A DNA stretch of 64,000 bases. Origin: Blastocatellia bacterium. Lineage in GTDB: Bacteria; Acidobacteriota; Blastocatellia; HR10; J050. Where the stretch lies: assembly GCA_025054955.1 (NCBI GenBank), contig JANWZE010000086.1, forward strand, positions 1 to 64,000, given 5' to 3'. The notes below the pieces were generated by a model. It made no database searches, was not told the origin of the DNA, and worked only from the letters and a program-made list of their open reading frames with translations. Below, piece by piece: positions 48,873-49,533 of this stretch. A program made the translations under genes and the position numbers. Each line of letters opens with the position of its first letter. Within the stretch, counting starts at the first letter, position 1.

Positions 48873-49533
48873 GTGTTGACCATGTCAATTGCTCGTACAA
48901 CATAGCCCACCAAGCGTGAGTCGGAGTAATCCGGCTGGCGGAGCCTTGGGCGGCGAACCGGCGAGCCGTAGCGAGAGCGAACCCAGTACGGCCTCGTTAC
49001 ACGACATGAGCGTGGCCAGTCTGCCGGGTAAGCTGAAGCCTGCCATCGGCGGGGAAGAAACGAGCGTGAGCACCCGTCGGACGCTCCGGGGTGAGAGGGG
49101 ACAGCGCGCGGGGATAGATCGGTCGAGGAACCTGGGAGACCCGCCTGAGTGGGGCCGATGGCCCGCCCGTCGGCAGGGAAGAGATAACCTGCCGGAGGAC
49201 TCGGGACGCGAGTCGGACAGGCCCCTAGGAGCGAGGAAGCGAGTCAGGATCGTGGAGCGAAGGGGTCTGACCGGAAAGACGTTTCTGTAAGAGGAGGAGA
49301 AAGCCGCTTGGATAAAGAGATCAATCCCACTACGGAGGAACCGGGGGCGATCCCAGGGGATGGCCTGCCGGTGAAACTTTCTCAACTGAGACAGAAGCTG
49401 GGCCAGAAAGCCAAGCAGGGGCTCACTGGCGAGCATTTCCGGGAGAGCCGGATGCGGGAAATCCGCACGTCCGGTTCGACGAGGGGGGAGTGGGCCGTGT
49501 CACTTGGTGGCATCGCTCATTCTCCTACTCTAC
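48873..49533 (+). mobile_element. Group II intron, internally deleted (ORF-less remnant)
   Basis: The 3' part has a clear domain V at 49445-49477 (GAGCCGGATGCGG, GAAA, then CCGCACGTCCGGTTC). A domain VI-like hairpin follows, ending CCTACTCTAC, and the intron end is placed at 49533. The upstream 500 bp contain the conserved-looking ribozyme text (GGTCGAGGAACCTGGGAGAC, GACCGGAAAGACGTTTCTG). The reverse transcriptase that normally lies between is reduced to its first residues (see 49308). The 5' end at a GTGTTGACC (48873) is approximate. Confidence 0.8.
49308..49421 (+). pseudogene. N-terminal remnant of group II intron reverse transcriptase/maturase
   Basis: The frame opens with TTG after an AGGAGG site. 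It encodes a short leader and then KLSQLRQKLGQKAKQ, the usual N-terminus of LtrA-type maturases. The next residues (GLTGEHFRESRMREIRTSG) are translated intron domain IV/V text, so the whole polymerase, maturase and endonuclease regions are missing. The deletion point is near 49421. Confidence 0.78.

Follow-up and report, generated by a model that had tools for sequence, protein, structure and literature searches.

Group II introns that lack an open reading frame (ORF) are rare in bacteria, and a related intron with a possible helper protein is nearly always present (PMC4424553, a review of 2015), the sole exception known to that review being C.te.I1 of Clostridium tetani (PMC4424553; PMC3919590). 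Further ORF-less introns, some of which have multiplied, are described in a 2022 survey (PMC8919778). The locus examined below lies in a stretch of 64,000 nucleotides from a Blastocatellia bacterium of the phylum Acidobacteriota (contig JANWZE010000086.1; the whole stretch analysed is hereafter called the window), and was read in an earlier note as a group II intron whose reverse transcriptase (RT) had been cut out. It raises the question of how a ribozyme came to stand there without its RT, and whether it could still splice. Our reading, in which we have high confidence, is that a group II intron sits in a dispersed palindromic repeat and that about 1.25 kb of RT was removed from domain IV, either in this intron itself or in the direct ancestor of it.

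Boundaries and insertion site of the intron

The earlier note had proposed a search with group II models, and Rfam gave matches for both the D1-D4 and the domain V/VI portions of the element. The RF00029 match (positions 49443-49533) reached 53.7 bits (E = 9.8e-8 for the window) against a cut-off of 40 bits and bears out the domain V of 33 nt that had been called at 49445-49477. The RF02005 (group-II-D1D4-6) match supports the ribozyme-like nature of the 5′ text (48863-49101; E = 2.8e-11), its score of 45 bits falling 4 bits under the curated cut-off of 49 bits.

The ends were placed by means of an empty site. When the flanks of the intron, which end at 48832 and resume at 49534, are joined, they align with an intron-free copy on contig 85 at 91% over 202 nt; the single gap in this alignment lies away from the splice point. 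Moving either end by a single base is ruled out by the adjoining bases, which are not the same (G/C and G/T). The ORF-less intron therefore spans 48833-49533 of the forward strand, on which its parts and exon ends given below also lie, for a length of 701 nt. The same ends are seen in RT-bearing relatives, whose 5′ start falls in the same alignment column. Of the span first proposed, 48873-49533, the 3′ end is retained and the 5′ end moves 40 nt upstream.

The joined flanks fold into a strong hairpin, which is part of a dispersed palindromic repeat recognisable from its other copies in the genome. The 5′ flank (48772-48832) belongs to this hairpin; the intron interrupts its 3′ arm, which continues at 49534, and the 3′ exon start TGGCT (49534-49538) is, by the empty-site alignment, the remainder of the interrupted arm. 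The 17-mer across the join, AATCTGTGGCTATTTTC, whose copies also confirm the ends of the intron, occurs nine times exactly in the genome and 18 times with at most two mismatches, against one occurrence of its reversed sequence as a control, and a 1001-nt query gave 65 genome matches, all of which, apart from the window's own copy, correspond to the flanks. The repeat family that served as the target has dozens of copies in the genome and surrounds the intron at 48711-48832 and 49534-49700. Just upstream of the intron, the segment 48000-48720 resembles a broken RHS/YD-repeat gene with interrupted frames, and downstream, at 49778-49890, a unit roughly 30 bases long (GTGCANTTGGCTGGG) recurs in tandem-like fashion.

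State of the ribozyme

Domain I (48838-49135) is supported by a consensus fold with covariation and contains the RF02005 match. Domains II (49136-49214) and III (49218-49269) are predicted from the consensus fold, the former with pairing weaker than in domain I and the latter with several pairs changed on both sides. Domain V (49445-49477) bears an AGC triad, and its catalytic triad, bulge and capped stem are all present according to RF00029 and the fold. The domain VI-like end recognised earlier is likewise confirmed by folding: in domain VI (49481-49530, the intron closing at 49533) the branch point is a bulged A at 49527, seventh when counted back from the 3′ end, and the terminal AC fits the AY rule. 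A domain V of 33 nt might be taken for a defect, a view that we reject because the domain V of the RT-bearing relative L046 is identical; the length is a trait of the family.

An alignment of seven sequences yields 124 pairs; in 59 of them both partners have changed in one sequence or more, counts that ignore kinship. Leave-one-out folding allowed the window's intron to be judged against a consensus built without it from eight relatives (98 pairs, 96 of them scorable for the window): it breaks five, and the relatives, left out in turn, break between three and 11. The core is thus intact-looking and not visibly eroded, with consensus pairing kept in domains I to III, V and VI.

The 5′ splice end (48833-48837) reads GUACG and departs from the GUGYG consensus at position 3, which is A and not G. 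At the same place relatives read GTGCG, GAACA or GAAAG; GAAAG is found in the seven introns of Pedosphaerales FR_27 (L105-L111) and GAACA in the two of Bryobacterales (L103 and L104), all of them RT-bearing. Because RT-bearing relatives vary there too, GUACG is a deviation and not a ground for exclusion from group II. Taken with two wobble pairs between the proposed EBS1 and IBS1, it nonetheless hints at erosion, and splicing may already be impaired by the A at position 3 and by these wobbles.

The EBS1 was sought by scanning every alignment column for pairing with the 5′ exons, a scan that left three equal best columns. Column 210 was taken as EBS1 because it is unpaired and varies with the exons; columns 274 and 322 were rejected, being barely variable and mostly paired in the consensus, as was a candidate near column 90, which is paired and mismatches the exons of the window and of L038. 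At column 210 the window has CGGGU (49025-49029), which would form five pairs, two of them G-U, with the IBS1 AUCUG of the 5′ exon (48828-48832), and relatives show the combinations CAAAG/CUUUG, CAGAG/CUCUG and CGGAU/AUCCG. An equally good agreement arose in 12 of 5040 reassignments, a figure that serves as a guide only, the column having been picked with the same data. Within the family, the proposed EBS1 covaries with the repeat that each intron invaded. Inverted repeats lie upstream of L038 and L047, but no hairpin stands out at L103, at L112 or at several of the FR_27 sites, and a hairpin is not established as a general target of the family.

Loss of the reverse transcriptase

Between 49206 and 49421 lies the remnant of an RT N-terminus, the upstream part of which overlaps the ribozyme domains. 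The maturase N-terminus KLSQLRQKLGQKAKQ, which the earlier note had picked out, stands at its end, and the remnant is 61% identical to residues 4-69 of the intact RT of L046. As had also been noticed, the coding text runs directly into domain IV/V: in the junction region (49420-49444), delimited by length comparison with relatives, the body of the RT is gone and the final stretch of domain IV follows, domain V starting about 35 nt further on. From the AAGCCAAGCAG-type (KAKQ) codons to domain V there are 35 nt in the window versus 1298 nt in L103, 1275 nt in L105 and 1288 nt in L122, so that about 1.25 kb of the RT is gone, in agreement with the internal deletion first suspected. What the window retains ahead of domain V (GGCGAGCATTTCC) is similar to the last part of L103's domain IV (GGCGATAACGTTTCC), which places both sides of the deletion within domain IV. 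The locus thus combines an RT remnant on the 5′ side with a domain IV shorter than in full-length relatives, the marks of an intron that became ORF-less by deletion.

Relatives and potential helpers

A single pattern search of GTDB genomes, based on a pair of conserved domain I blocks, yielded 15 loci; they belong to Betaproteobacteria, Verrucomicrobia and Acidobacteria, Bryobacterales among them. Full-length relatives with matching ends, which the earlier note had sought, do exist in other genomes as RT-bearing introns, namely in Bryobacterales UW1SPNA014 (L103, L104) and Pedosphaerales FR_27 (L105-L111); a further RT-bearing relative, truncated at the 5′ end, is found in the acidobacterial MAG56 (L046/L122). 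Those with measured ends (Bryobacterales, Verrucomicrobia) are 1967-1979 nt long. These relatives match the window's intron in homologous domains I to III, V and VI, in a homologous 3′ end and in the type of target site; unlike it, they still have their group II RT/maturase within domain IV. The L046 protein (478 aa) has RVT_1 and GIIM domains, scores 390 bits with TIGR04416 and finds its best score among solved structures with the GsI-IIC RT. The hairpin at the window's own insertion site and the nearness of a relative's RT to GsI-IIC recall group IIC introns. CGC is the usual domain V triad of group IIC, whereas the window has AGC, and several sites of the family are without a clear hairpin.

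ORF-less parallels were also considered within the family. L112 and L038 were both set aside as degenerate, the former having lost domain III and the latter yielding no domain V. L112, from a betaproteobacterium (G512), is a 531-nt ORF-less relative without domain III or RT and with an EPKFRF-type RT fragment inside. In Verrucomicrobiales H5_VER1 there are several introns of about 0.8-0.9 kb (L113-L117), nearly identical to one another, more distant in type and apparently ORF-less, each enclosed by the two arms of a long inverted repeat, as seen over the full length of L113 and L117; a multiplying non-autonomous group II intron is a possible interpretation. A search of IMG/VR with GAGCCGTAGCGNNAGCGAACCC gave no match, and plasmid searches returned nothing beyond domain V matches or short pieces.

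Within the host's own assembly, RF00029 matches once, RVT_1 gives no match, and the L046 RT matches solely the remnant in the 701-nt intron, with no compatible RT/maturase elsewhere. As no other RT is found in an assembly that is 99.48% complete, the genome offers no known helper and no supplier of the maturase that the earlier note envisaged in trans; as this assembly is split into 152 contigs, an RT copy may yet be hidden, collapsed or missing. Members of the host's taxonomic family carry distant RTs.

Origin and fate of the intron

The following course accounts best for these observations. A group II intron entered one copy of the dispersed palindromic repeat at the target ..AATCTG^TGGC.., presumably by retrohoming via EBS1/IBS1 pairing, and about 1.25 kb of domain IV, nearly the whole RT/maturase, disappeared from this intron or from its direct ancestor. 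Without an RT it is unable to spread by itself. Its core, to judge from the fold, may retain enough for splicing, either at a slow rate or helped by a factor of the host or by a maturase of foreign origin. The repeat that holds the intron is not part of any evident intact gene, so nothing at the locus appears to depend on splicing.

How much activity is left is the point on which the strongest alternative turns. The intron could be a dead relic, decaying and unable to splice under any condition, and we give this little short of an even chance: the GUACG end, the wobble-rich EBS1/IBS1 pairing, the genome devoid of an RT, the want of an evident host gene needing splicing and the clear degeneration of L112 and L038 all speak for it, but pairing is as well kept as in RT-bearing relatives, which also include non-GUGYG 5′ ends, and domains V and VI are intact. 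A second alternative concerns the order of events, the intron having been inserted already ORF-less and moved in trans by the RT of a relative since lost from the lineage. The ORF-less introns of Thermosynechococcus elongatus provide a precedent (PMC2882425), L112 and L038 have lost the RT as well, and H5_VER1 seems to carry several ORF-less copies of its more distant intron; the window's intron, however, is single-copy in a genome now without RT, and no second copy with the same deletion occurs in the genomes searched, which leaves this course less likely than not. That the assembler skipped the RT of a copy that is in fact full-length is very improbable, for although a genome often has more than one copy of a group II intron and contigs of other genomes examined end inside introns, no RT sequence besides the remnant is present in the assembly and the junction is internal to a contig of 121 kb.

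Loss of the RT from an intron that keeps its ribozyme fold remains the preferred reading, and it can be set beside two known systems. The TeI3 series of T. elongatus shows an ORF deletion of similar size in domain IV (about 1.5 kb) with N- and C-terminal remnants, but its ORF-less introns are multi-copy and accompanied by driver RTs (PMC2882425), whereas the window's intron is single-copy and no driver was found. C.te.I1 resembles it in being ORF-less in a genome without an IEP gene (PMC3919590; PMC4424553); it differs in that it splices inside the gene for a surface layer protein and has four copies of domain V, the intron described here being placed in a repeat and its splicing putative. We consider it unlikely that the broadest account holds in full, namely that a cross-phylum family, non-IIC by its domain V, tracks dispersed repeats by altering its five-nucleotide EBS1 to fit the repeat of each host, tolerates non-GUGYG ends in RT-bearing members and has left an orphan ribozyme that splices without any IEP in the cell.

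The 701-nt intron is a further ORF-less bacterial group II intron, a kind already known, and is of the rare orphan sort. It belongs to a family in which EBS1 varies together with the invaded repeats. An orphan with an intact-looking core provides one more case in which to ask if such ribozymes can go on splicing once their maturase is gone, which is a proposed step toward spliceosomal introns.
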